Source: a virus. From it: DNA of 30,601 nt. The position numbers and the translations under genes are program-made. The stretch spans positions 1 to 30,601 of the IMG/VR virus record IMGVR_UViG_3300042484_003364. One strand, written 5' to 3'. The notes under the pieces were generated by a model, which was given only the letters and a program-made list of their open reading frames with translations, ran no database searches and was not told the origin of the DNA. Shown one piece after another: positions 189 through 28,357 of this stretch (positions are counted from its first letter, which is position 1; every line of letters starts with the position of its first letter).

Positions 189-779
189 TCAGCGGTTGAA
201 GCGCGAGAGCGCGAAGGCCAGCTCGCGCTCGAAGATGGCAGGGAAGCGCGCCTGCATGGCGGCCACCACTGCCGCCTTGATGCGCCTGGCGTTGAACATC
301 TGCGGCAGGTCGATGGTCTGCACCGGTTCGATCTGCTCGCCGTGCTTGCCGCCCCACTTGCGGCTGGCCATCTTGGTGCCGGGCTGCCTGGTGAACACCG
401 TCCGCCCCTTGTTGCCGATGAACACATTGCGGATCAGCTTGCGCGGCTGCCCGCGCTTGATCTTGACGGTGACGCCGGCCTTGCCCGCCTTCGCCCCAAA
501 CCTGATGACGTTGGCAGAGCGCGGCTTCTCTTGCGCGTCGAGCGCGGCCTCGAGGCCCAGCCTGCCGTTGAAGAACGTGGCGCGCTTGATGCGCAGCCGC
601 TGGCCCACGAAGCGCGTGTCGACCGCGAACTCCTGGCGGATCTCGCGGCTCATCTGCGTGCGGGCCTGGGCGATGGTGGCGTTGAGAGCCCGCGCCGTGG
701 CCTTGTCGGCCACCTCACGCTGCAGGCCCTGCAGTGCACGCTGCACCTGGGGGAAGTTGGTCTCGATGGTGATGCGCAT
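189..779 (-). CDS. Phage minor tail protein Z-like protein
   Basis: This 196-residue protein begins MRITIETNFPQVQRAL and continues with a predicted helical stretch (ARALNATIAQARTQMSREI). That is the layout of the prophage minor tail protein Z family (gpZ), which assists the head-tail connector region of lambda-like phages. The basic middle part (IKRATFFNGRLGLEA, VKIKRGQPRKL) also fits. The start at 779 gives the family's usual length; a longer open frame upstream overlaps the next gene and has no family signal. The gene follows the 87-residue gene by 1 bp, so the two are probably translated from one mRNA. Its position beside replication and packaging genes is odd, because in lambda Z lies between FII and U. 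Family assignment is by eye. Confidence 0.7.
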   Translation of the reverse strand: MRITIETNFPQVQRALQGLQREVADKATARALNATIAQARTQMSREIRQEFAVDTRFVGQRLRIKRATFFNGRLGLEAALDAQEKPRSANVIRFGAKAGKAGVTVKIKRGQPRKLIRNVFIGNKGRTVFTRQPGTKMASRKWGGKHGEQIEPVQTIDLPQMFNARRIKAAVVAAMQARFPAIFERELAFALSRFNR

Positions 780-780
780 G

Positions 781-1044
781 TCAGGCTCTCTTGATGCCCA
801 CGGTGTGGCCGTTCTCTTCGGCATAGAAGCACCCCGCAGGGAAGCGCTGGCGCCGCAGCCAAGCGGCCGCAGCAGCCTCGCCCTGGGTCTGCACCATGGC
901 CAGGTGCTGCCGACGGGCCTGCTGGCCTGCCTTGAGGGCCGCATCGACCTTCTCAGCCCCCAGCAGCAGCCTCAGCTCGGCCACCCATGCCGCTGTCTGC
1001 GGCATCGCCTCTCTCATTCCTTCCCTCTTCTCTTCAATGCTCAT
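781..1044 (-). CDS. Small phage protein of unknown function (87 aa)
   Basis: An 87-residue protein starting MSIEEKREGMREAM and rich in Ala, Gln and Arg. It has no transmembrane segment and no motif I recognise. The central helix (AALKAGQQARRQHLAMV) suggests a small helical protein. It is the first gene left of the symmetric repeat array, so any promoter or regulation acting from that array would hit it first. It abuts the minor tail Z-like gene, with its TGA 1 bp before that gene's ATG, suggesting translational coupling. No clear Shine-Dalgarno precedes the ATG at 1044. Confidence 0.6.
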   Translation of the reverse strand: MSIEEKREGMREAMPQTAAWVAELRLLLGAEKVDAALKAGQQARRQHLAMVQTQGEAAAAAWLRRQRFPAGCFYAEENGHTVGIKRA

Positions 1045-1050
1045 GGTCGT

Positions 1051-1246
1051 GTTACGGGTGTTTCGGGGGGCGTTACGCGGATAAGGCGCGTCGTTACTTG
1101 CGTTACGGTGTTACGCGTGGTGCTTCACACATGCGCACACGCGCCTGCGCATGTGTGTACGTGCGTGGGGTCGTAACAGCGAAACGCACGTAACCACGCG
1201 GGTTTGCGGCGTAACAGGGGTCGTAACACCCCGGGTTTGGCGTAAC
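1051..1246. repeat. Symmetric GTTAC / GTAAC repeat array with central palindrome; candidate replication origin
   Basis: Five GTTAC motifs (1051, 1072, 1093, 1102, 1110) are followed by a 12-bp inverted repeat CACACATGCGCA / TGCGCATGTGTG (1126-1137 and 1146-1157, 8-base loop). Five GTAAC motifs on the opposite strand follow (1173, 1190, 1211, 1223, 1242). Several copies are 21 bp apart, two helical turns. The array fills the only non-coding stretch between the helicase gene and the late-type genes. Iteron-like repeats next to replication genes are typical of phage and plasmid origins. An alternative is an operator or late-promoter control region for the 87-residue gene. The symmetry is seen; the function is inferred. 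Confidence 0.6.
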
Positions 1247-1256
1247 ACGCGGGCCA

Positions 1257-2702
1257 TCAGTTGGCATCCTCGAAGCGTGAGCTGCTGATGCTGCGGGTGT
1301 ACTCGCGCAGCGTGGCCTCGAAGCTCTCCACGCCGTCAGCAGCCCAGGCGCCCTCGCTCAGCCCGTTGGGCGCTGAAAGCCCCCGCGGCAGCCAGCAGCG
1401 CACCGCACGCCGGCCATCAGCGCCATGCAGCTGCACCACCTTGTAGGCCAGGCGCGCGCCGTCTGGGTCGCTGCCGCTGTGTTCCTTGATCCAGCGGCCC
1501 ACCTCGCTGGTGAAGGCGGCCTGGGCGGGCGGGAAGCGCTCGCCGCTGACATCGCACCAACGCCGGAACGCCCGGTACAGCTGCTCGGCCGAACACACCC
1601 GCAGAGGGAGCGGGAGATACCCCGCCATCCACTCATGGGCGAAGCGCTCGCTGGGGCGCCAGCCGCGCTGGATCAGCTCCTCCTTGGCCCGGGTCATGAT
1701 GGGCTTCGTGTGGCGATCGAACCCATCCAGAGGGTAGGAGAGCAGGTAGTGCAGCCACTTGCGCGCGCCGTCAGCGGCCAGGAAGTCGCGCACCTTGAGG
1801 TAGAGGCCCTTTTCATCGGCCAGCGGCGTGTACACCACCATGTAGCGCCGGTCGCGCTCTTCCAGGGCCAGGGGCTGGCTCTCATTCGACAGGAACACCA
1901 CGTTCGCGTGGTTGCTCTCCCAGCGCGTGGCCTGCTGGATCTCCCGGATCGGGAACTTCTGCTGCTGCGTCACGATCAGCTTGAGCCGATTCTTGTTGTG
2001 GTACATCTCCTGGCGGCTCACCACCTCGTCGCCGATGATCGCCAGCTTCTGGCTGAGCCAGCCGTTGAACTTGTCTTCGAGCTCGGTCTGGCCCACGGTG
2101 ATGCCATACCTGTCGTACAGGTCGCGCCACACATCCCAGTACAGGTTTTTGCCAGTGCCCTGCGGCCCGTGCATGACGATGGCCGTCTGCATCTTGGCGC
2201 CCAGCTGCTGCAGCGGCAGCGCCTGCCAGCACAGCACCCAGTGCACGATGGCGTCGACCTCGTCGGCGTGCTCGGCGCTGTTGGCACACAGGTGGCGCAG
2301 CAGCTCGAGCATGGGCTGCACCTCGCGCGCCTCGCAGGGCAGCGGCTTCGTCTCAAGCCCGCCGAACAGCTGAATGCAGCCGTCGGGCAACTCTTCGCCC
2401 GGCTCGAACATCAGCTGCTCGGGCATCACGATGCGCCGCGTGGGGTTGTTGAGCCAGGCCTTCACCGAGTCAGACGTCAGGGCCAGGCGCAGCGCGTCCA
2501 CTGGCAGGATGCGGTGGTTCTCTTCGTCCCAGACTGTCTTGGTGCCGTAGATCAGCACGAAGCGCTCCATGAGCTTCGTGTAGTTGCCCAGGTTGATGCT
2601 GCTGGGTTTGCGCTTGCGCGTAGCCCCTCCCCCCTTGGGCGCGGGTGCTCCGCCATCGGGTGGGGCAGGCGGTTCGATAGGCACGACGTTGTCAGGCTGC
2701 AT
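1257..2702 (-). CDS. Phage replicative helicase/ATPase (SF3-like, DUF5906-type)
   Basis: A 481-residue protein with a disordered, Pro/Gly/Lys-rich N-terminus (residues 1-35) and a P-loop ATPase core. Walker A is GPQGTGKN at about 179-186, and a Walker B-like strand LAIIGDEV lies at about 220-227. It is followed by a QQQKFPIREIQ / NVVFLSNE block typical of superfamily-3 helicases of phage primase-helicase systems (DUF5906 group). It should unwind DNA at the phage origin, working with the Toprim primase encoded immediately upstream; the two genes overlap by 11 bp. The start at 2702 is chosen because the longer frame upstream only re-reads the primase gene. The candidate origin lies directly downstream. 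Family is clear; the helicase role is inferred. Confidence 0.85.
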   Translation of the reverse strand: MQPDNVVPIEPPAPPDGGAPAPKGGGATRKRKPSSINLGNYTKLMERFVLIYGTKTVWDEENHRILPVDALRLALTSDSVKAWLNNPTRRIVMPEQLMFEPGEELPDGCIQLFGGLETKPLPCEAREVQPMLELLRHLCANSAEHADEVDAIVHWVLCWQALPLQQLGAKMQTAIVMHGPQGTGKNLYWDVWRDLYDRYGITVGQTELEDKFNGWLSQKLAIIGDEVVSRQEMYHNKNRLKLIVTQQQKFPIREIQQATRWESNHANVVFLSNESQPLALEERDRRYMVVYTPLADEKGLYLKVRDFLAADGARKWLHYLLSYPLDGFDRHTKPIMTRAKEELIQRGWRPSERFAHEWMAGYLPLPLRVCSAEQLYRAFRRWCDVSGERFPPAQAAFTSEVGRWIKEHSGSDPDGARLAYKVVQLHGADGRRAVRCWLPRGLSAPNGLSEGAWAADGVESFEATLREYTRSISSSRFEDAN

Positions 2703-3651
2703 GCAAAGCGTTTGAATTGAGCAGCGGCAGCACGTGCCGCAGTTGCCGCCGCACCGCGCCGATACCGTCGCGCTGGTGCAGGTCGTTGAAGTCGGTGTCC
2801 TTCTCGCCACGCGCGGGCCCGAACACCGGCCACGTGTACACACAGTTGTCGACGGTGCGCGAGCACTTGTGGGCCTTGTCTCGGCCCGGGTTGCCTGCGG
2901 TGCGCCAGTCGTCGTCGGCGCAGATCAGCAGCGGCGCGTGCGGGTACAGCGCGCGCAGCAGCTCGCAGGCCGGCTGCAGGTTGCCCGCATCCAGCGCCAC
3001 GAACACCGGCAGCCGGCGCTCGACGGCCATGCGCAGGCTCAAGCCCGTGGCGTAGCCTTCGCACACCAGCACCGGCTCGCCCACGGCCACATGGCCCAGG
3101 CGCACACCCACGCCGGGCTTGCTGAAGCCCTTGCTGAAGCGCTTGGTTCCGTCCGGCCAGATGCGCTGCACAGCGCGCAGGGCCTGCTCGCGCGGCATGT
3201 CGTACCGCAGCAGCGGCACCACGATGCTGCCGTCGGGCAGGTAGCGGCAGGCCTCGGCGTCGACGCCCTTTCGCTGCAGGTAGCTGCTGGTGCCATCACG
3301 CGCGGCGGTGGCCCACAGCTCAGCGGCACCCATGGCGGCCAGGGCTGCCAGGCGCGCGCGCTGGGCGTCTTCTTCGGCCTGGCGGGCGCGGCGGCGGGCT
3401 TCGAGCTCGTCACGATCGGCCGCGCTCAGGCCGGCCCAGTCCACCGCCACCTTGTGGGCCTCTTGCCCGCGCCAGTCGCCGAACGAACCCACCACCACGT
3501 AGGCACCGCCCTGGGTGCGCATCTCACGCAGGGCGTACCACTGGCGCTTCTTCGGGCCGAACCGCACGATGCGCCCGCTCAGGTCAAGCCGGCCGGCCGG
3601 GGGCTCGAGGCCCGCGGCAACCATCTGGCCGACAACGTCCTGGGCGTGCAT
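2692..3651 (-). CDS. Toprim-domain DNA primase
   Basis: About 319 residues. The N-terminal part (DLSGRIVRFGPKKRQWYALRE) resembles the region before the Toprim fold in zinc-finger-less phage primases. An Arg/Glu-rich helix follows (about 85-120). The Toprim core is VLVCEGYATGLSLRMAVER, VFVALDAGNLQPA and LLICADDDW, carrying the conserved Glu and the DxD acidic pair that bind metal. It would synthesise primers for phage replication together with the downstream helicase, whose start it overlaps. Two starts are possible: ATG 3651, or ATG 3693 which would overlap the preceding gene. I prefer 3651 because MHAQDVVGQMVAAGLEPP matches the usual beginning of such proteins, with GGGAG upstream. Confidence 0.85.
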   Translation of the reverse strand: MHAQDVVGQMVAAGLEPPAGRLDLSGRIVRFGPKKRQWYALREMRTQGGAYVVVGSFGDWRGQEAHKVAVDWAGLSAADRDELEARRRARQAEEDAQRARLAALAAMGAAELWATAARDGTSSYLQRKGVDAEACRYLPDGSIVVPLLRYDMPREQALRAVQRIWPDGTKRFSKGFSKPGVGVRLGHVAVGEPVLVCEGYATGLSLRMAVERRLPVFVALDAGNLQPACELLRALYPHAPLLICADDDWRTAGNPGRDKAHKCSRTVDNCVYTWPVFGPARGEKDTDFNDLHQRDGIGAVRRQLRHVLPLLNSNALHAA

Positions 3652-3670
3652 TCCCTGGCGCTCCCGGATG

Positions 3671-3886
3671 TCAGCGCTCGCCCGGGATTGCATTCCCGGC
3701 GATTCCCAAGCGCTCGGCCTTCTTGGCGAGCACGATGGCGGCATGCACTCGACGACGGATCTCTCGCTTCAGCAGCTGCTCGGCCCACGCACCCATATCG
3801 GTGTCCTCGGCGTCGGCCAGCAGCTGCAGGCCGGCGTGGTCGTCCGCGTCCAGCTTCAGGCGCAGGTCTTTGCGTTCAATGCTCAT
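3671..3886 (-). CDS. Small phage protein, RHH/plasmid-related type (71 aa)
   Basis: A 71-residue protein starting MSIERKDLRLKLDADDHAGL, with the pattern of a beta strand followed by two helices (LQLLADAEDTDMGAWAEQLLKREIRRRV) seen in ribbon-helix-helix and similar small DNA-binding proteins of phages. It precedes the primase in the leftward early operon. It may bind DNA at the origin or regulate replication genes, but neither is shown by the sequence. The start ATG at 3886 is weakly supported, with no strong Shine-Dalgarno. Confidence 0.6.
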   Translation of the reverse strand: MSIERKDLRLKLDADDHAGLQLLADAEDTDMGAWAEQLLKREIRRRVHAAIVLAKKAERLGIAGNAIPGER

Positions 3887-5361: not shown

Positions 5362-5795
5362 ACCGCCCCACCGCAAGCCAGATCGAAGCCGCCCACGCGC
5401 TGGCCGACTACCACGCCCGCCAGGTGCAGCGCCACGAACGCACCGCCATCAACGCCATGCTGGGCGGCGTGCTCGCCGTGCTGGTGGCCCTGGGCCTGGT
5501 GTGGGCCCTGCTCACCTGGGCCGACTGCACCGCCAGCGGCGCCGCCATGTGCACCATGGCCATCACGCCCACCCGCCGCAACCTGTGGCAGCGGCTGCTG
5601 CGCGCGGTGCGGCGCTACTTCAAGCTGTGGCAGATCCGCTGGGCCGAAGACGACGTGCGCGGGCTCGAAGAAGACCTCGAAGCCGCCCAGGCCTGGGTGG
5701 CCGCTGCGCCCGGCGTCATCCAGTACCGCCGCGCACTGCTCGACGCGCTGCGCGTGCAGACCATGAGCGACGAGCTCGACGGCCGGGTGCGCTGA
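5358..5795 (+). CDS. Membrane-anchored phage protein of unknown function (145 aa)
   Basis: The protein starts MNRPTASQIEAAHALADYHA and has one strong transmembrane segment (AMLGGVLAVLVALGLVWALL, about residues 35-54). A short loop and a basic amphipathic region (RRNLWQRLLRAVRRYFKLW) follow, then an acidic helix (DDVRGLEEDLEAAQAW). It overlaps the lipoprotein gene by ATGA, so the two are translationally coupled and may act together at the membrane. I do not recognise a family. Confidence 0.6.
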   Translation: MNRPTASQIEAAHALADYHARQVQRHERTAINAMLGGVLAVLVALGLVWALLTWADCTASGAAMCTMAITPTRRNLWQRLLRAVRRYFKLWQIRWAEDDVRGLEEDLEAAQAWVAAAPGVIQYRRALLDALRVQTMSDELDGRVR

Positions 5796-8956: not shown

Positions 8957-8957
8957 G

Positions 8958-9044
8958 GCCTGACGGGCCGCATGAGCGGGGCGCGTGACAGCGCCTGAAG
9001 ATGCAACCATGCCGGCGCGCCTCCGCTCGATGCGGGTGTTAGGG
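8958..9044 (-). repeat. attC site A (terminal, next to phage DNA)
   Basis: GCCTGAC (8958-8964) and GTTAGGG (9038-9044) enclose arms GAGCGGGGCGCG and CGCGCCTCCGCTC, which pair except for one extra T in the right arm. This is the extrahelical base typical of attC. By that base the site points leftward. The outer core GCCTGAC departs from consensus because half of it is flanking phage sequence. Confidence 0.75.
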
Positions 9045-9073
9045 CGCCGGCTCAGAAGCGAGAAGGAGCAGAC

Positions 9074-9427
9074 GTGCAAAGAGCAGTGGACTACCTGAAA
9101 AGCAAAGAGTGGAGCATGGGCAACGGCCAATGCCCAGACTGCTACGGCGTGCCAGCAAGTTGGCACGGCCACCCGCTGCACATGAAGGCAGACGGCGTGG
9201 GGCACGAGGCAGATTGCACGCTGGCTGCAGCGTTGCGCGACCTGGGCGACAAGCCGCTGATGAAGGGCGAGTTCACCAGCGCCGTGGAGTTTGAGCACTA
9301 CATCAGCGAAAGCGGCATCTACGTGACCAGGCCTAAGACGGCCGAAGGCTGCCCGCGCCACAAGGCTGAAATGCAGCGGCTGCAGCAGATTTGGCTGGCA
9401 GCGCTTGCCGACGAGAAAGCGCCCTAA
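9074..9427 (+). CDS. Integron cassette protein of unknown function (117 aa)
   Basis: A 117-residue protein starting with GTG at 9074 after a strong AGAAGGAG site. A CPDCYG motif (residues about 20-25), a later HEADC and a CPRH point to a small metal- or disulfide-containing domain. LAAALRDLGDKPLMKGEF is helical. Proteins of this kind are common as hypothetical integron cassette products. Its TAA lies inside the cassette boundary core CCCTAAC. It reads opposite to the attC polarity. I do not know the function. Confidence 0.65.
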   Translation: MQRAVDYLKSKEWSMGNGQCPDCYGVPASWHGHPLHMKADGVGHEADCTLAAALRDLGDKPLMKGEFTSAVEFEHYISESGIYVTRPKTAEGCPRHKAEMQRLQQIWLAALADEKAP

Positions 9428-9440
9428 CGAGTAGTTATGC
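9422..9440 (-). repeat. attC site B, collapsed (19 bp)
   Basis: CCCTAAC (9422-9428) and GTTATGC (9434-9440) are separated by only five bases, so the inner pairing arms are missing. Each core still matches its cassette partner (9038 and 9753), so this was a real cassette junction that lost its hairpin. It should not fold or recombine, fixing two cassettes together. Confidence 0.65.
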
Positions 9441-9458
9441 CGCCAGGGGAGAAACGAG

Positions 9459-9758
9459 ATAAAGCTGAACTGCAAACAGGGCGAGCTGGCCGTGGTGGTG
9501 CGAGCAAAGAACCGCGCCAACATTGGCAAGATCGTGCGCTGCCTTCGCTTGGCAGAAGGCTGCCCGATTGAACGCCTATTGATCTCTGACTTTGATCACG
9601 GGCCTACATGGATTGTCGAACCGGCGATGATTCACAGCAACGGCCGATCCATGCCGTATGTTGCAGACATGAAGCTGCGCCCGCTGCGAGACAGCGACGG
9701 CGAAGACGAGGTGTTGCGGCTCGTGGGGCGGCCTGTTGGCGACCCTCAAGCGGCATAA
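9459..9758 (+). CDS. Integron cassette protein, start codon apparently ATA (about 99 aa)
   Basis: The conserved-looking beginning IKLNCKQGELAVVVRAKN is encoded from 9459, where the codon is ATA at ideal spacing (7 bases) from AGGGGAG. The first standard start is GTG at 9492, which would cut off eleven residues. I therefore think the original ATG mutated to ATA and translation is weak or uses the internal GTG (88 aa). The protein has the strand-rich pattern KQGELAVVV...GKIVRCLR...DGPTWIVEPAM of a small beta-barrel. Function is unknown. The stop TAA lies in the boundary core GCATAAC. Confidence 0.55.
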   Translation: MKLNCKQGELAVVVRAKNRANIGKIVRCLRLAEGCPIERLLISDFDHGPTWIVEPAMIHSNGRSMPYVADMKLRPLRDSDGEDEVLRLVGRPVGDPQAA

Positions 9759-9891
9759 CGATCGAGTTAACGCCGCCGAAGGTCGGCGTTGAACGTTCGA
9801 GCTAAGTTGACCGATGCGGCGGCTGCCGCTGGTGACGAAGCGAGAACACGATAGCCCGCCGCAGCGGGTCAACTTGAGCGAGGGGTTCGGC
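9753..9891 (-). repeat. attC site C, long and composite
   Basis: GCATAAC (9753-9759) to GTTCGGC (9885-9891), 139 bp. Read on the minus strand it starts like a normal attC (core GCCGAAC, CTCAAGTTGACC arm, matching GGTCAACTTAGCTC arm). A second compact hairpin then follows, TTCAACGCCG / CGGCGTTAACTC, before the end core. It looks like two attC sites back to back with no gene between them. Confidence 0.7.
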
Positions 9892-9920
9892 CTCTCGTTC
9901 CGAAGCGAAAGGACGATGGA

Positions 9921-10295
9921 ATGAAGACTGCGAAGTGGTGGATGGTGCATGCGCTGCATTGGGCGGTTCTTTACGGCGCGTTTGTGGCGCAGATTGACGG
10001 CGCGATGTACGTGCTGAAGTTCTTTGTGTGGGTGATGGCGCCGCTGTCGCTGTTCCTGCTGGTGGAAAAGGCCGCCCAAGACGCCGCGAAAGAGCCGCCG
10101 CTGCCGGCGGTGCGCGGCTGGTTCACTTGGACGCAGGCGTGGGCAACACTGGCGCTGCTGGTGTGGTTTGGCCACATTGCCAGCGGGCTGGCCTGGGGCC
10201 TGGTGATGGTGATGTCCGCGCTGCACCGAGACGCCACCAAGAAAGCACGCGCCGAACTGGCAGCCAAGGACGCCAGCGCCACAAGCGCCGCATGA
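9921..10295 (+). CDS. Integron cassette membrane protein (124 aa)
   Basis: This 124-residue protein starts at the second of two close ATGs, preceded by AAAGGA. It has about three transmembrane segments: WWMVHALHWAVLYGAFVAQI, VLKFFVWVMAPLSLFLLV and WATLALLVWFGHIASGLAWG. A charged Ala/Lys-rich tail (ATKKARAELAAKDASA) follows. It should sit in the inner membrane. Small membrane proteins are common cassette products. No transporter or enzyme motif is visible, and function is unknown. Confidence 0.7.
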   Translation: MKTAKWWMVHALHWAVLYGAFVAQIDGAMYVLKFFVWVMAPLSLFLLVEKAAQDAAKEPPLPAVRGWFTWTQAWATLALLVWFGHIASGLAWGLVMVMSALHRDATKKARAELAAKDASATSAA

Positions 10296-10296
10296 G

Positions 10297-10382
10297 GCCG
10301 AACGATTGAGGAAAGCTGCCGCGCTGCGGTGGCGACGGAGCGCTGACCGCCACCCGCGGTCAGCTTGTGCGAAGGGTTAGGC
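10297..10382 (-). repeat. attC site D
   Basis: GCCGAAC (10297-10303) to GTTAGGC (10376-10382), 86 bp. The arms AAGCTGCCGCG and CGCGGTCAGCTT pair with one extra T on the right. On the minus strand this gives CAAGCTGACCGC, the usual left arm of attC. It is nearly identical to site G, and the following 16 bp (CTGTGGCCGGAGCGAG) are also identical. Confidence 0.85.
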
Positions 10383-10407
10383 CTGTGGCCGGAGCGAGAG
10401 GTGTGAC

Positions 10408-10569
10408 ATGAGGCGTGTTCTTGGCTGGCTGATGCTGGCAGCAGTGTTCGGCGGCTTGTTTGCCGCGGTTGTCGTTGCTAAGGGGTGGATGCTGGCGGCG
10501 TTTGCCTTTGGCGTGGCCATCGCGCTGACCGCGATCATCTACGTGGCCGTGGAATGGATTGTTGGATAG
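10408..10569 (+). CDS. Small integron cassette membrane protein (53 aa)
   Basis: A 53-residue protein (MRRVLGWLMLAAVFGGLFAA...) that is almost entirely two transmembrane helices: GWLMLAAVFGGLFAAVVVA and AAFAFGVAIALTAIIYVAVE, joined by KGWML. A GAGAGGTG ribosome site precedes the ATG. The TAG lies just before the boundary core GCCTAAC. Two-helix peptides like this are frequent in integrons and phages (holin-like, toxin-like or membrane-modulating), but the sequence gives no specific function. Confidence 0.65.
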   Translation: MRRVLGWLMLAAVFGGLFAAVVVAKGWMLAAFAFGVAIALTAIIYVAVEWIVG

Positions 10570-10570
10570 G

Positions 10571-10623
10571 GCCTAACGGGCCGGGTAAGCCGCCCGGAGG
10601 GTCGGCTTACCCGGGTGTTAGCC
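10571..10623 (-). repeat. attC site E (short, 53 bp)
   Basis: GCCTAAC (10571-10577) to GTTAGCC (10617-10623) with a perfect 12-bp stem CCGGGTAAGCCG / CGGCTTACCCGG and a 10-base loop. No extrahelical base is evident, unlike the others. It may work less well, or act as a transcriptional hairpin; no T-run follows. Confidence 0.7.
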
Positions 10624-10785
10624 GGCCGGTGGAGGACGCGAACGATCTATGAGCGCGCGCAGCCACGCCAGCCCGTGCGCGTCGATCTTGGCCCACTGCG
10701 CAGCCGTGAGGCGGATTGAGCGTTGCACCAGGCGCTGGTCTTCAGGCACGGGTGGGCGACCGCCAAGATTTTTTTGCTGTTCCAT
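10618..10785 (-). CDS. Ribbon-helix-helix-like small regulator in a cassette (55 aa)
   Basis: A 55-residue protein (MEQQKNLGGRPPVPEDQRLV...) whose core QRSIRLTAAQWAKIDAHGLA fits a ribbon-helix-helix DNA-binding fold, with a basic strand followed by a helix. Similar 'RS(I/V)RL(T/S)AAQWAK(I/V)DA' proteins are common cassette products. It is the only cassette gene reading in the attC direction, and its TAA lies in the boundary core GGCTAAC. A TATACT box (10797-10792, minus strand) lies 6 bases from its ATG, suggesting its own promoter and a short or absent leader. It may regulate the two divergent small genes. Confidence 0.65.
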   Translation of the reverse strand: MEQQKNLGGRPPVPEDQRLVQRSIRLTAAQWAKIDAHGLAWLRALIDRSRPPPAG

Positions 10786-10886
10786 GCGGGGAGTATAGGT
10801 GATTCAACAACTTATGCGTAGGGGCTTGTGCTGCTTTAGTTTCTGTGATTCAATAACACCCATCGACACACCAACCGGAGAGCAAC
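10786..10886. promoter_or_regulatory. AT-rich divergent promoter region inside a cassette
   Basis: This AT-rich stretch differs from the surrounding DNA. GTGATTCAACA (10799-10809) and GTGATTCAATA (10845-10855) are direct repeats 46 bp apart. On the minus strand TATACT (10797-10792) fits a -10 box for the RHH-like gene. On the plus strand TTGTGC (from 10826), a 17-base gap and TTCAAT is a weak promoter for the genes at 10887 and 11018. The repeats may be operators for the RHH-like protein. Confidence 0.5.
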
Positions 10887-11021
10887 ATGCAAGCCAAGCA
10901 AGACACCGTAACCATGACCTGGCAAGCCAACGGCCGCAACTGGCGCGAGCTGCGCTGCTGGAACGGCCGGGGATTCCAGTACTTCACGCAGTACGAATAC
11001 GCGCCGGGGCTGTGGCTGTGA
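10887..11021 (+). CDS. Tiny cassette protein (44 aa)
   Basis: A 44-residue protein starting MQAKQDTVTMTWQANGRNWR, rich in aromatic residues (WNGRGFQYFTQYEYAPGLWL) and likely a small beta sheet. CCGGAGAG lies 7 bases before its ATG. Its stop overlaps the next start in GTGA, so the two genes are coupled, a layout seen in toxin-antitoxin pairs. No known family is recognised. Confidence 0.5.
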   Translation: MQAKQDTVTMTWQANGRNWRELRCWNGRGFQYFTQYEYAPGLWL

Positions 11022-11188
11022 GCGAGGGCCGAAGGCCCCCTGAGCAGGGGCGCAAGGTGATCGACTTGGCGCAGCAGCGCCACAAGCGCCTGGTGCTGGC
11101 CGAGTTTGACCGCCAGCAGCATCAGGCGGACCGCGAGGCCCGCGAAAAGCGCGCGGAGGTCGAGCGCCTGGCTCGGCATCGCGTGTGA
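11018..11188 (+). CDS. Small charged helical cassette protein (56 aa)
   Basis: A 56-residue protein starting with GTG, overlapping the preceding stop by four bases. It is very rich in Arg, Glu and Gln (QQRHKRLVLAEFDRQQHQ, EAREKRAEVERLARHRV) and probably one long amphipathic helix or coiled coil. A partner or DNA/RNA-binding role with the preceding protein is possible. The stop lies 1 bp before the boundary core GGCTAAC. Confidence 0.5.
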   Translation: MSEGRRPPEQGRKVIDLAQQRHKRLVLAEFDRQQHQADREAREKRAEVERLARHRV

Positions 11189-11189
11189 C

Positions 11190-11294
11190 GGCTAACACCA
11201 AGCTGAACGGCCCACAAGGGCCGGCACGAAAGGACGAGAAATGAGCACACAGCAGCCCGGCCCTTGTGGGTCCGATTCGAGCGCCGTGTTAGGC
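11190..11294 (-). repeat. attC site F
   Basis: GGCTAAC (11190-11196) to GTTAGGC (11288-11294), 105 bp. The arms GGCCCACAAGGGCCGG and CCGGCCCTTGTGGGTCC pair over 16 bases with one extra T on the right, again giving leftward polarity. This is a different arm family from sites D, G and H. Confidence 0.85.
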
Positions 11295-11320
11295 CACGCT
11301 GGTGGCGAAGCGAGGAAGTG

Positions 11321-11590
11321 ATGGCAACAGGCTACTGGATGGAGAACGCAATGCAGCCCGGCCGGCATGTGCTGGTGGACTGCGGGCCGTGGAGCGAGCC
11401 GACGACGCAAGAGCGCTTCAAGCGGCTGCGCGAGCGCGTGGCGCTGCGGAACTTTGAGCGCGTGGGCAATGACAGGCTGGTGGTGCGGTTGCCCCCGAAG
11501 GTGGCGCCGACCGTCCTGGCCGACATGCCAGAGATTCAGCCAGGCGCAGCCGGCTACTGCTGGTGCACGCACGGTTTTTGCGTGGCCTAA
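11321..11590 (+). CDS. Integron cassette protein of unknown function (89 aa)
   Basis: An 89-residue protein starting MATGYWMENAMQPGRHVLVD, chosen because AGCGAGGAAG precedes ATG 11321 and upstream residues read attC. A strand-helix-strand pattern follows (HVLVDCGPW, TTQERFKRLRERVALRNFERV, DRLVVRLPPK), then a C-terminal GYCWCTHGFCVA with three cysteines, perhaps metal-binding. The stop lies in GCCTAAC. Function is not known. Confidence 0.6.
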   Translation: MATGYWMENAMQPGRHVLVDCGPWSEPTTQERFKRLRERVALRNFERVGNDRLVVRLPPKVAPTVLADMPEIQPGAAGYCWCTHGFCVA

Positions 11591-11670
11591 CGATTGAGGA
11601 AAGCTGCCGCGCTGCGGTGGCGACGGAGCGCTGACTGCCTACCGCGGTCAGCTTGTGCGAAGGGTTAGGC
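11585..11670 (-). repeat. attC site G
   Basis: GCCTAAC (11585-11591) to GTTAGGC (11664-11670), 86 bp. It is nearly identical to site D, differing only in the left core and a few loop bases. It shares the extrahelical base and the 16 bp beyond the site, so the two cassettes downstream of D and G share their attC and leader. Confidence 0.85.
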
Positions 11671-11692
11671 CTGTGGCCGGAGCGAGGAAACG

Positions 11693-11902
11693 ATGAGCGA
11701 CCTACTAGCCCGCATTCGTGCGGCACAAGTGCAAGCGGCTGAGGAAGCGGTGATTGCCAGCATTCCCGCCGACTTGAAAGAGCACATGCGCAAGGCCGAC
11801 GAGGCCTTCAAGGCGCGCGGCGGCTGCAAGGGCTGCGGCAGCATGGTGCTGGCGGTGCATCGAGGCGGCTGCCCGACGCTGCGAGAGCCGGACTTCTACT
11901 GA
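11693..11902 (+). CDS. Small cysteine-containing cassette protein (69 aa)
   Basis: A 69-residue protein (MSDLLARIRAAQVQAAEEAV...) with an N-terminal amphipathic helix of about 40 residues. A compact C-terminal GGCKGCGSMVLAVHRGGCPTLREPDF follows, where CxxC plus a later His/Cys could hold zinc. A GAGG site lies upstream. Its stop is 2 bp before the boundary core GCCTAAC. No family is recognised. Confidence 0.6.
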   Translation: MSDLLARIRAAQVQAAEEAVIASIPADLKEHMRKADEAFKARGGCKGCGSMVLAVHRGGCPTLREPDFY

Positions 11903-11904
11903 AG

Positions 11905-11990
11905 GCCTAACGTGGAGCTAACCGGGCGCCCGCTTGGCGGCCCCGGAGCGTGACACGCCGTTGGCGCTCCGGTTGAGCGCAGGGTTAGAA
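11905..11990 (-). repeat. attC site H (first site next to attI)
   Basis: GCCTAAC (11905-11911) to GTTAGAA (11984-11990), 86 bp. The arms AACCGGGCGCC and GGCGCTCCGGTT pair with one extra T on the right. The minus strand reads AACCGGAGCGCC first, the canonical attC left arm. GTTAGAA is complementary to the attI-side core TTCTAAC. Confidence 0.85.
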
Positions 11991-12007
11991 CTCTGGTGGA
12001 GAAAGCA

Positions 12008-12403
12008 ATGCACCTGTGGGAAGTGGATCACCCGTACTACTGCAACGAGGGCAACTACTACGCCAGCGAGTCGGTGTGCGATGAGTACAAGTCGTGGGCC
12101 TCGTTTGCCGAAACCTACAAGGACGCCGACATGGACATGAACCTCGTGTTCCGGTGGGACTGGCGCGAAGGCAAAGACTGGGGCCTCGGCCCGTTCACCG
12201 GGGATGTGCACTACCGCAACGGTCGTCTGCTCATCTTCTGGATGGGCCAGCGCAAGGGCCTCTATCGCTATTCGACGGTGGAGGTGTGCCGGGCCGATGA
12301 GCCCAGCGTGCGCGCGTTCTTGCTGCCGCGGTGGGAGCACCTCAAGACCCTGTGGGAGCCGCTGAGTTCTAACGTTAATTCGACCGCAGGAACCGCGGCG
12401 TAA
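12008..12403 (+). CDS. Integron cassette protein, MHLWEV family (131 aa), stop supplied by attI
   Basis: This 131-residue protein starts MHLWEVDHPYYCNEGNYYA, with GGTGGAG 7 bases upstream. The sequence (DADMDMNLVFRWDWREGKDW, YRNGRLLIFWMGQRKGLYR) is of a type I associate with widespread hypothetical cassette proteins. Function is unknown. It is the cassette nearest intI and reads towards it. No stop lies before the cassette boundary: the frame crosses the core TTCTAAC into the attI-like site and ends at 12403, adding about 10 foreign residues. Confidence 0.65.
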   Translation: MHLWEVDHPYYCNEGNYYASESVCDEYKSWASFAETYKDADMDMNLVFRWDWREGKDWGLGPFTGDVHYRNGRLLIFWMGQRKGLYRYSTVEVCRADEPSVRAFLLPRWEHLKTLWEPLSSNVNSTAGTAA

Positions 12404-12414
12404 CACCGACCACC
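12367..12414 (-). promoter_or_regulatory. attI-like integron recombination site
   Basis: On the minus strand, from intI outwards, GTTACGC (12405-12399) is followed 32 bases later by the crossover core GTTAGAA (12373-12367), with AATTAAC just before the core. As I remember it, attI1 has the same GTTACGC direct-repeat element 32 bases before its GTTAGGC core. The site lies directly upstream of intI, where attI belongs. No Pc promoter is evident. Confidence 0.65.
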
Positions 12415-13524
12415 ATGCCCATCACCCAGGCGCCGCCCACCAGCACGAGCATTACGCGCCGCACCAGCGCCGCGTTGAGCTGCGAGCCGGCCAGCGCGCG
12501 CCTGGATGTCCCGTTGCCCAGGCCGAGCGCCACGCCCGAGCCTGGCCAGCGCGGCCACCTGCAGCACCTGCTGGTGTCGGCCATCCGCACGCGCCACTAC
12601 AGCCGCCGCACCGAGCAGGCCTACTGGCACTGGACGCGGCAATTCGTGCTGTGGAGCGGCAAGCGCCACCCCATCGACATGGGCGCGCCCGAGATCGGCC
12701 AGTTCCTCAGCCACTTGGCCACCGAGCGCAACGTCAGCGCCAGCACCCAGCGCCAAGCCCTGGCCGCGCTGCTGTTCCTGTACCGCTGCGCCCTGCAGAT
12801 CGAGCTGCCCTGGGTCGACGACATCGTGCGCGCCAAGCAGCCCCAGCGCCTGCCGGTCGTCCTCACCCGCGACGAGATCGCCCGGCTCTGGCCGCAGATC
12901 CCGCAGGCCTCGCGCCGCGGCCTGGTGCTGCGCCTGCTGTACGGCACTGGCATGCGCCTGCTCGAGGGCCTGCGCCTGCGCGTAAAGGATGTCGACTTCG
13001 CCACCGGCACCATCACCGTGCGCGCCGGCAAGGGCGACAAAGACCGCACCGTGATGCTGCCGCAGAGCCTGGCGCCCGAGCTGCGCGAGGTGCTGGCCGA
13101 GCGCGAACGCTGGCACGCCGTCGATCTGGCCACCGGCCACGCTGATGTCGAGCTGCCGCACGCGCTGCACCTCAAATACCCGGCCGCGCCGCGGCAGCTC
13201 GGCTGGCAGTTCCTCTTTGCCACCGAGGACTACGTCACCTGCCCGCGCACCGGCGCCATCCGCCGCCACCACCTGCACGAAGACGGCATCCAGCGCCTCA
13301 TGGCCAAGGCCGTGAAGGCGGCACGCATCCACAAGACGGCCACGCCGCACACCCTGCGCCACAGCTTCGCCACCCATCTGCTGCAGGCGGGCTATGACAT
13401 CCGCACCATCCAGCAGCTGCTGGGCCATGCAGACGTCGAGACGACCATGATCTACACCCACGTGCTGCCCGCCACCCAGGGCGGCCGCGGCGTGCTCAGC
13501 CCGTTGGACACACTGGCCGCCTGA
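12415..13524 (+). CDS. intI: Integron integrase
   Basis: A 369-residue tyrosine recombinase that inserts and excises cassettes at attI x attC. RTRHYSRRTEQAYWHWTRQF and the QALAALLFLYRCAL block match the IntI N-domain. Catalytic residues are Arg181 (GTGMR), Lys206, His312 and Arg315 (PHTLRHSFATHLL), His338 (LLGH) and Tyr347. All sit exactly 35 positions after those of IntI1 (146, 171, 277, 280, 303, 312). The IntI-specific insert (ALHLKYPAAPRQLGWQFLFA) and RRHHLHED are present, so it is IntI and not XerC/D. The first about 35 residues are an unusual Pro/Thr-rich extension, and no Shine-Dalgarno precedes the ATG. It ends 2 bp before the excisionase-like gene. No LexA box is seen. Confidence 0.95.
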   Translation: MPITQAPPTSTSITRRTSAALSCEPASARLDVPLPRPSATPEPGQRGHLQHLLVSAIRTRHYSRRTEQAYWHWTRQFVLWSGKRHPIDMGAPEIGQFLSHLATERNVSASTQRQALAALLFLYRCALQIELPWVDDIVRAKQPQRLPVVLTRDEIARLWPQIPQASRRGLVLRLLYGTGMRLLEGLRLRVKDVDFATGTITVRAGKGDKDRTVMLPQSLAPELREVLAERERWHAVDLATGHADVELPHALHLKYPAAPRQLGWQFLFATEDYVTCPRTGAIRRHHLHEDGIQRLMAKAVKAARIHKTATPHTLRHSFATHLLQAGYDIRTIQQLLGHADVETTMIYTHVLPATQGGRGVLSPLDTLAA

Positions 13525-26461: not shown

Positions 26462-28357
26462 TCAGGTGGTGAGCGCGTCGACCATGGCCGAGAAGCTCTC
26501 GGCACGGCGCACGGCGATGTCCACGTCTTGCAGCGTGATCACGCGCACGGTGCCGGCGGTGCCGCCGGTGTAGGGGTCGACCATCAGGTCGAGGCCGCCC
26601 CACATGCCGATGATCAGGTCGGCGAAGTTGCCGAACAGGATGGCCGAGCAAACCGCGCCAGAGCTGCCCTTCACCAGGTTGCTGGGCACCGCGTTGGTGA
26701 CTTCGGCGCGGTAGCCGTTGAGCGGCGTGGTGCCGGCTTCCCACAGGAACTGCGCCGTGGACGCAGCCTTCTCCACCGTCTTGAGGCGGCCACGCACGCG
26801 GGCGTTGGTGAGGTAGCCCAGGGTGCCGATGTCGGCGTTGTCTTGCGCGACCTCGGTCTCCAGCGCCACGATGTTGGCAAACGTGGGCACCAGGCCGTTG
26901 GTGCCACCCGCCACAGAGCCGATGCCCACGACGTTGAGGATGCCGCGCGGCTCGGCGCCCGAGCCCGAGCCGTTGATGCCGGCGCGCTGCAGCTCGAGTG
27001 CCAGCACGGTGGCCAGGTCTTGGCGCACGAAGGCCTCGACGTCCAGGCTCGACTGCAGCAGCAGCTTGCGGCTGATGTCGGTGAACGCGCCCATCGTTTT
27101 GGGCGACATCGTCACCTGGTCGAAGGCCTGCTGGCTTTCGGTGGGCGAGGCGTTTTCCGCCACCCAGAAAGCACCGCCGGCGCCGGTGGCGCGCGGGATG
27201 GCGATGTTGCCCGACAGGCCCGTGAGCATCTGCGTGCCCATGCCCATGAGCACCATGCGGTTGCGCAGCAGCTCGATGAAGTCACCAGCGCGCAGATCGG
27301 TGGCCACGGTGTTGCCGCCCATCGAGGCGGTGCCGACCAGCAGGTCGCGGCGCAGCACGTCGGTGGGCACCATGATGCCGCGCGAAGCCTTGCCCGACTT
27401 CTCGCTGGCGGCGCGGCCGACCTCGATCTCGAAGGCTGCCGCCTCTTGCGCGCTGCGGTGGCCGGGGTTGGCCAGGGCGTTGAGCGCGCGAACGAAGCTG
27501 AAGCGCTGCACTTCCTTCTGCGTGAGGCCGATGTCGGTGTTGGGCTTGGTGGCCTTGGCCAGGTGGGCCATGGCCTGGGCGCGGAACTCGTCGAGCGGGG
27601 TGCCCGCGCGCACGGCGGCCTGGGCCAGCTTGTCCACGCCCTGTGCGCGGAACTCTTCGCCGATGGCGATGATGGTGTCGACGCGGCCGCGCTCGGCGGT
27701 GGCGCCCTGCTGCCGCTCGGCGGCGGCGTCGATGACTGGATCGGACATGGTGGTAACTCCACGGGTGGCGGCCAGCGGTGCGCCGGCCTTGGGTTGGGTA
27801 GCGGGGCTGGCAGCACCAGCAGCTGCGGCGTCGGCACTGCGGCCGACACCGACGGTGGGATCGGCCGGCACGCTGACGAGAGAGACCTCGTAGGGCTCCC
27901 ACGACTTCACGCGGTAGGTGCCGACACCGTCGCGCTCTTCCTCGAGCACGGCGTCGTGGATCACGTAGCCCACCGACACGTTGCGGCGGATGCCGTCGAT
28001 CACGTCTTGGAAGACCTCATTGGCGCGCGCGCTTCTCCCGAAACGCACCACGGCGCGGGCCACCCGGTCCTTGCCGATCTGCACCTGTTCGATCACCCCG
28101 ACCTGGTCGCGGCTGTCGTGATCCATCAGCAACGGGCCGCCCTTGGTGAGGCGGTCCATCTTGATGCTGCTGGCCTGGTGGTCGAGCACCTCGATGCCCC
28201 AGCCACGCTCGTATGGCTCTTCACTGCTGAAGGCCAGCGTGACGGTGCGCGCCTCTTCGTCGACCGCAGCGCGGTCGCCGCCGAGGCTTAGCGCGCGGGT
28301 TGCGCGTGTACCGGGTGCGTAGCGGGTTTCGAGGGCTTGACCATCCATGCCTGGCAT
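26462..28357 (-). CDS. Prohead protease-major capsid protein fusion (HK97 type)
   Basis: A 631-residue protein. Residues about 15-170 are a U35-type prohead protease (MDHD with His80, RRNVSVGY with Ser128, SWEPYEVSLVSVPADP). A linker rich in Ala/Pro follows (about 175-205). Residues about 210-631 are scaffold-delta helix plus HK97-fold capsid protein (AAFEIEVGRAASEKSGKA, SGNIAIPRATGAGGAFWVAE, MGAFTDISRKLLLQSSLDVE, RVITLQDVDIAVRRAESFSA). Processing should release the capsid protein. Protease-capsid fusions are known in several phages. An alternative start at 28348 removes 3 residues. Confidence 0.88.
   Translation of the reverse strand: MPGMDGQALETRYAPGTRATRALSLGGDRAAVDEEARTVTLAFSSEEPYERGWGIEVLDHQASSIKMDRLTKGGPLLMDHDSRDQVGVIEQVQIGKDRVARAVVRFGRSARANEVFQDVIDGIRRNVSVGYVIHDAVLEEERDGVGTYRVKSWEPYEVSLVSVPADPTVGVGRSADAAAAGAASPATQPKAGAPLAATRGVTTMSDPVIDAAAERQQGATAERGRVDTIIAIGEEFRAQGVDKLAQAAVRAGTPLDEFRAQAMAHLAKATKPNTDIGLTQKEVQRFSFVRALNALANPGHRSAQEAAAFEIEVGRAASEKSGKASRGIMVPTDVLRRDLLVGTASMGGNTVATDLRAGDFIELLRNRMVLMGMGTQMLTGLSGNIAIPRATGAGGAFWVAENASPTESQQAFDQVTMSPKTMGAFTDISRKLLLQSSLDVEAFVRQDLATVLALELQRAGINGSGSGAEPRGILNVVGIGSVAGGTNGLVPTFANIVALETEVAQDNADIGTLGYLTNARVRGRLKTVEKAASTAQFLWEAGTTPLNGYRAEVTNAVPSNLVKGSSGAVCSAILFGNFADLIIGMWGGLDLMVDPYTGGTAGTVRVITLQDVDIAVRRAESFSAMVDALTT

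Follow-up and report, generated by a model that had tools for sequence, protein, structure and literature searches.

The locus analysed here raises the question of what a mirrored array of short repeats, lying between a helicase gene and late-type genes of a virus, might be for. The virus is represented by record IMGVR_UViG_3300042484_003364, which is incomplete; the whole of its 30,601 nt (positions 1-30,601) is called the window below.

The array and the genes around it

The array fills the gap between two minus-strand reading frames: the gene for a DUF5906 helicase of the SF3/D5/NrS-1 (or D5/NrS-1/P4-alpha) type (1257-2693; 478 aa; Pfam DUF5906, E 4.4e-16), and a small ORF without an assigned function (781-1044), which forms the far border of the array and for which a similar reading was seen by eye in several close relatives. 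Beyond the small ORF lies a tail-completion/minor-tail-Z-like gene (189-782, minus strand), in agreement with a first-pass annotation that had placed the array between the helicase and late-type genes. The helicase gene is overlapped by the gene for a partner primase on the same strand (2692-3744; Pfam Toprim_3, E 4e-8; PHROG 2249 DNA primase, E 1.6e-79). No DNA polymerase gene was found among the window proteins searched, which represent part of the ORFs.

The carrier is a phage with virion genes of its own, among them tail genes and a single ORF (26462-28357) in which the prohead protease is fused to the major capsid protein; this ORF matches NCBIfam NF045541 below the cut-off and the HK97 capsid family TIGR01554 above it. 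The phage record also contains an integron-like cassette array (8957-13521), whose neighbours are a gene for a cytosine methyltransferase on one side and a phage integrase on the other. It includes an integron integrase gene (12415-13521, plus strand; NCBIfam TIGR02249, E 1e-128) and attC-like sites between small cassette-like ORFs, such as the near-identical 103-nt repeats at 10296-10398 and 11584-11686, which end in GTTAGGC. No integrase related to this one was found in the other loci fetched, and the region may derive from misassembly or from insertion into a prophage.

The arm of the array distal to the helicase gene (1051-1115) consists of six sites, counting one-mismatch copies: GTTACG at 1051-1056, 1072-1077, 1102-1107 and 1110-1115, and GTTTCG (1060-1065) and GTTACT (1093-1098), each with one mismatch. 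The proximal arm (1172-1246) also has six, namely CGTAAC at 1172-1177, 1189-1194, 1210-1215, 1222-1227 and 1241-1246, and CGAAAC, with one mismatch, at 1180-1185. All six sites of each arm face the centre in the same sense. The first-pass annotation had reported five GTTAC on the plus strand (1051, 1072, 1093, 1102 and 1110) and five GTAAC (1173, 1190, 1211, 1223 and 1242), several of them at 21-bp steps; these positions are confirmed, and the steps are exact at 1051-1072-1093 and 1190-1211, with GTTTCG and CGAAAC as the sites that it missed. Further one-mismatch matches on the opposite strand overlap the array sites with an offset of one base.

GTTAC or GTAAC occurs 16 times in the whole window, with ten of the 16 inside 1051-1246, five each way (shuffles, mean 9.5), and there is no second GTTACG cluster in the incomplete 30.6-kb record. 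A mirror score, which counts 6-mers that are forward words on one side and reverse words on the other, reached 9 for the array; none of 100 shuffles scored more than 5, and none of 294 other windows taken from the record more than 8. An automatic count of 7-mer sites in the window alone gave 8.6, against 5.5 for shuffles and 8.8 for the best control window; this count is indecisive for the window alone because it is blind to orientation, and it is the oriented mirror score that is decisive. Rfam offered no useful match to the array as an RNA element; its one hit, to a microRNA (E 0.83), is attributable to chance.

Occurrence in related phages

A protein search provided 17 viral and two genome loci as close relatives (helicases 56-100% identical), and comparison with these loci bore out the array, which is recognisable just past the helicase stop codon in 19/19. 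The site word is GTTAC in most of them, with GTTGC in L016, GTCCC in L017, L018 and L020, TTTAC in L015 and a GTTAT-like word in L013; where the word is substituted, both arms are altered together. The two most diverged loci have arrays that are visible by eye, although L019 does not pass the exact 6-mer mirror test and the score of L013 is low. The sites share a common lattice, lying about 0, 8-9, 17-18, 38-39, 48-51 and 59-69 nt from the inner edge of their arm.

More distant phages, with helicases 30-37% identical, carry an array at the same place made of unrelated words, including TGTGCGG, TTCCGACA/TTCAGACA, TGTTGGGT, GGTTAGGG and TGGTGCA. Among these carriers are Stenotrophomonas phage S1, Halomonas phage H4907, Pseudomonas phage Lodos, SC_9, KT1, PG1 and Moraxella phage Mcat7. 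Phages in which a DNA polymerase gene adjoins the primase (MW2, LKO4, Vibrio 69E27.1 and MW202898) gave no detectable mirrored array. A survey of 187 loci was reduced to 58 helicase clusters, with locus L039 set aside on account of a frameshift that misplaced its stop; automatic 7-mer discovery, with the centre of the array masked over its alternating tract (see below), beat all 20 shuffles in 48 of the 49 array-bearing clusters. Six sites per arm is a mode and not a rule: the 6+6 arrangement is the commonest (13/49 clusters), and the total is 10-13 in 37/49. Full mirroring of the two arms is seen in the window and S1 families; in those of Lodos and H4907 it is confined to the inner blocks, and the outer right block has the opposite direction.

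Between two iterons 21 nt apart, the window (1198-1210) and its relatives have a AAACCCGCGT-like box. In several relatives the opposite arm has this box in inverted form, and distant relatives show CTAAGTTGTTG-like letters at the box position.

The centre of the array

Between the arms is an alternating purine-pyrimidine tract (1126-1167; 42 nt, 64% GC) with almost perfect alternation. It was overlooked in the first-pass annotation, which had instead placed a 12-bp palindrome at the centre. The palindrome exists, as a 12-nt inverted repeat (1126-1137 / 1146-1157, with an 8-nt loop) inside the tract, but it is not conserved as the central feature, and it is the alternating tract that is constrained: in a test of 20 tracts against shuffles that preserve the purine/pyrimidine pattern, the palindrome was significant in the window only (p=0.003), and it is a property peculiar to this phage.

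The alternating-run score of the tract (33) is the strongest in the record, the next best being 15, and the tract is likewise the top-ranked alternating run of the genome in H4907, S1 and Lodos, but not in P4. Across 50 array-bearing clusters the median score was 18.5; the 2286 control windows had a median of 8.0, and all of them stayed below 20. The loci in this comparison are related and the windows overlap, so that its p value is only nominal. The median was 6.5 in eight more distant clusters, and the score is weak in the S1 family. The tract lies a median of 10 nt past the inner left sites. Its mean G+C is 0.72 vs 0.54 for the rest of the array, and it is the richer part in 45/49 clusters. 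Because it is G+C-rich and built of CG, GC, TG/CA and GT/AC steps, the tract is not an AT-rich melting site. Alternating purine-pyrimidine DNA of this composition is of the sequence type that forms Z-DNA.

Not all relatives share this kind of centre. The lowest-GC 20-mer in the window centre is 0.55, so that the AT-rich centre of SaPI and PICI origins is not found there, and the window and S1 families in general have a centre without an AT-rich stretch (lowest-GC 20-mer, median about 0.5). Lodos and H4907 types have an AT-rich stretch after the tract (lowest-GC 20-mer about 0.3), in partial likeness to the SaPI/PICI centre. Moraxella-type relatives (43-47% GC) have an AT-rich centre and in most cases no tract, with L209 as an intermediate. 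Since the Moraxella-type relatives that have the AT-rich centre are mostly without the tract, tract and AT-rich element are probably alternatives for the same job, with the tract replacing a melting element.

Ahead of the inner right sites, the Lodos family and the window's distant relatives have a T-run and then C/T-ATGCG or TACGCG-like letters (e.g., TTTTTTTCCTACGCGAG and TTTTTTCCCATGCGCGA), as in L024 (about 5435-5475) and the centre of L017 and L019. This is possibly a further shared origin element.

The helicase as putative initiator and the reading as an origin

The core of the helicase resembles NrS-1 primase-polymerase (PDB profile match, E 2.7e-14). For an AlphaFold2 model of the helicase, in which the ATPase core is poor and the C-terminus good, the nearest solved folds were NrS-1 (Z 13), African swine fever PrimPol, SaPI5 primase-helicase (Z 10.3) and poxvirus D5/E5, and the model also matches SaPI PriRep1 with dsDNA (Z 7). 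A winged helix is predicted at the C-terminus (residues about 344-468), and this domain alone gave as tied best matches RFX-DBD and the P4 origin-binding domain (1ka8: Z 6.0, 84 residues, 3.7 A); a Z of 6.0 is middling and speaks to fold and not to function. Once core divergence is controlled for, divergence of the site word still tracks that of the C-terminal domain (n=15 relatives; partial r 0.55, p 0.001), in a Mantel test whose permutations ignore phylogeny and whose related loci are not independent. The primase partner varies between families (Toprim or Prim-Pol), as does the downstream gene, and the helicase is constant; the array therefore belongs with the helicase. From the predicted fold and the co-variation, we infer that the DUF5906 helicase is the initiator that reads the iterons.

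We consider it likely that the array is the replication origin of the phage, worked by the adjacent helicase. The first-pass annotation had suggested an origin with two opposed sets of initiator sites, a proposal strengthened by the conservation of the array beside the helicase, the concerted change of the word, the winged helix resembling the P4 origin-binding domain, and the published layout of SaPI/PICI and P4 origins. At the array, GC skew does not switch in any of the four sequences examined (window, H4907, S1 and Lodos), which speaks neither for nor against an origin.

The best reading, by analogy with the published models for SaPI and PICI origins, is of an origin with a self-loading helicase that would work like P4 crr. 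The GTTACG sites would be read by the winged helix at the C-terminus of the helicase, as its fold and co-variation suggest. The facing six-site arms would then gather about one hexamer each, in opposite orientation; site number and orientation are observed, and hexamers would be expected from the NrS-1 and SaPI helicases. In what is the weakest step of the model, the strands may open in the central alternating tract, which would replace the AT-rich melting site of SaPI, PICI and P4, perhaps through a flip to Z-DNA under negative supercoiling that leaves the B-Z junction unpaired. The two helicases would finally depart in opposite directions, the partner primase would prime, and the host polymerase would replicate both ways. 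It is a doubtful extension of this model that a large group of complete temperate proteobacterial phages has 6+6 mirrored origins in which a GC-rich, Z-capable tract replaces the AT-rich element and double hexamers open the DNA via a supercoil-driven B-Z transition.

The first-pass annotation did not recognise the arrangement from a described phage, yet close published parallels exist in P4 crr and the SaPI/PICI ori. The SaPI ori follows rep directly and is recognised by the C-terminal domain of Rep, apparently as two hexamers (PMC7581432), and PICI origins have two iteron sets around an AT-rich region and are functional on plasmids (PMC6092414). As in the window, the SaPI/PICI arrangement has a centre between two groups of short iterons, directly 3' of the gene for an initiator helicase, which appears related to that of the window, by fold only, and has a C-terminal DNA-binding domain; as in these phages, the iteron word differs between elements. 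However, their centre is AT-rich, whereas that of the window is a GC-rich alternating purine-pyrimidine tract, and they are satellite islands without virion genes of their own, whereas the window is from a phage with capsid and tail genes. For these two reasons we do not file the window array as a PICI origin.

In P4, crr is located just 3' of the alpha gene with the same inner arrangement (read from the P4 record), and alpha matches DUF5906 and Toprim_3 and has a similar C-terminal winged helix. The type 1 repeats of crr are oriented ++ -- + in each 120-bp unit, with the fifth repeat pointing the other way, as does the outer right block of Lodos and H4907. In contrast to the window, where the array is single and its word is GTTACG, crr is duplicated and has an AT-rich middle without an alternating tract, and P4 has a separate ori, with its own repeats, about 4.5 kb from crr. 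SCCmec Cch2 resembles our proposal in being a self-loading helicase with a C-terminal domain that binds to short iterons located 3' of the encoding gene (PMC7581432), but its putative origin comprises three AAGTG direct repeats only, and mirrored arms are not reported as needed for binding. Phage BPP-1 was considered as the closest phage parallel and rejected, with no comparable mirrored array in the stretch read.

The place of the array at the border of early and late genes could have other meanings. A packaging (cos/pac) site bound by terminase would suit S1, in which a small terminase gene is close behind the array, and L016, in which a Nu1-like ORF and a large terminase gene come after it; but the array stays by the helicase in Lodos, H4907 and PG1 even though their small terminase gene is about 1.9-3 kb off, behind other genes. 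With the site word also changing along with the helicase C-terminus, this explanation is extremely improbable. That the array precedes late genes, and is followed by an antiterminator-like gene in H4907, would also agree with an operator or regulatory region for the downstream genes (for a repressor, a late activator or a terminator). We consider this very improbable: it is the downstream gene that differs between families and the helicase that is constant, the repressor/cro-like genes at 4.0-4.7 kb have no further copies of the word around them, and no sigma-70-like promoter or terminator was found at the array.

Other alternatives concern the working parts of an origin. The functional unit might be a long stem-loop (cruciform) and not the iterons, as proposed for plasmid pRN1 and phage BIP-1, in which, as in the window, a candidate origin lies 3' of a primase-SF3-helicase gene; there a large hairpin is the presumed assembly site of the replication protein. 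The pRN1 hairpin is required for replication (PMC4234260), and the inverted arms of the window can pair, with a single strand that folds better than shuffles (z -4.85). However, the pRN1 and BIP-1 hairpin is without iterons, whereas in the window iterons are the conserved unit and the arms are out of register: the steps between exact sites, from outer to inner, are 19, 12, 21 and 17 in one arm vs 21, 21, 9 and 8 in the other. Arm-to-arm identity is 333/377 at site positions vs 143/209 at spacers, and the right arm of Lodos and H4907 is partly in direct orientation and so cannot join one hairpin; a stem-loop as the functional unit is thus improbable. An origin whose iterons are recognised by some other protein, of the phage or of the host, which then loads the helicase, draws some support from the middling match (Z 6) of a common helix/wing fold. 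It is an unlikely arrangement, given that array and helicase stay together despite changes in the primase partner and small neighbour genes, that the word co-varies with the C-terminal domain of the helicase, and that SaPI and P4 set the precedent.

Read as an origin worked by its own helicase, the array would provide a candidate origin and a probable initiator for many phages with an unannotated replication start. No description of a mirrored origin in these phages was found in the open-access literature searched, a body outside which most subscription papers lie. According to a 2018 statement, the organisation of PICI origins is found in no other known bacterial replicon; this would need widening if origin activity were confirmed. 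The extension to complete phages of a layout called unique to phage-inducible islands bears on the source of the islands' replicon. The conserved GC-rich centre raises the question of how a helicase would open an origin that is not AT-rich, with the AT-rich-centre variants available as natural comparisons, and arrays with differing words, together with their matching C-terminal domains, make up a natural set for learning the specificity code between protein and DNA.

One annotated gene coincides with such a mirrored array: gp2 of Stenotrophomonas phage S1 (L021; 2454-2804), which is probably not a gene.
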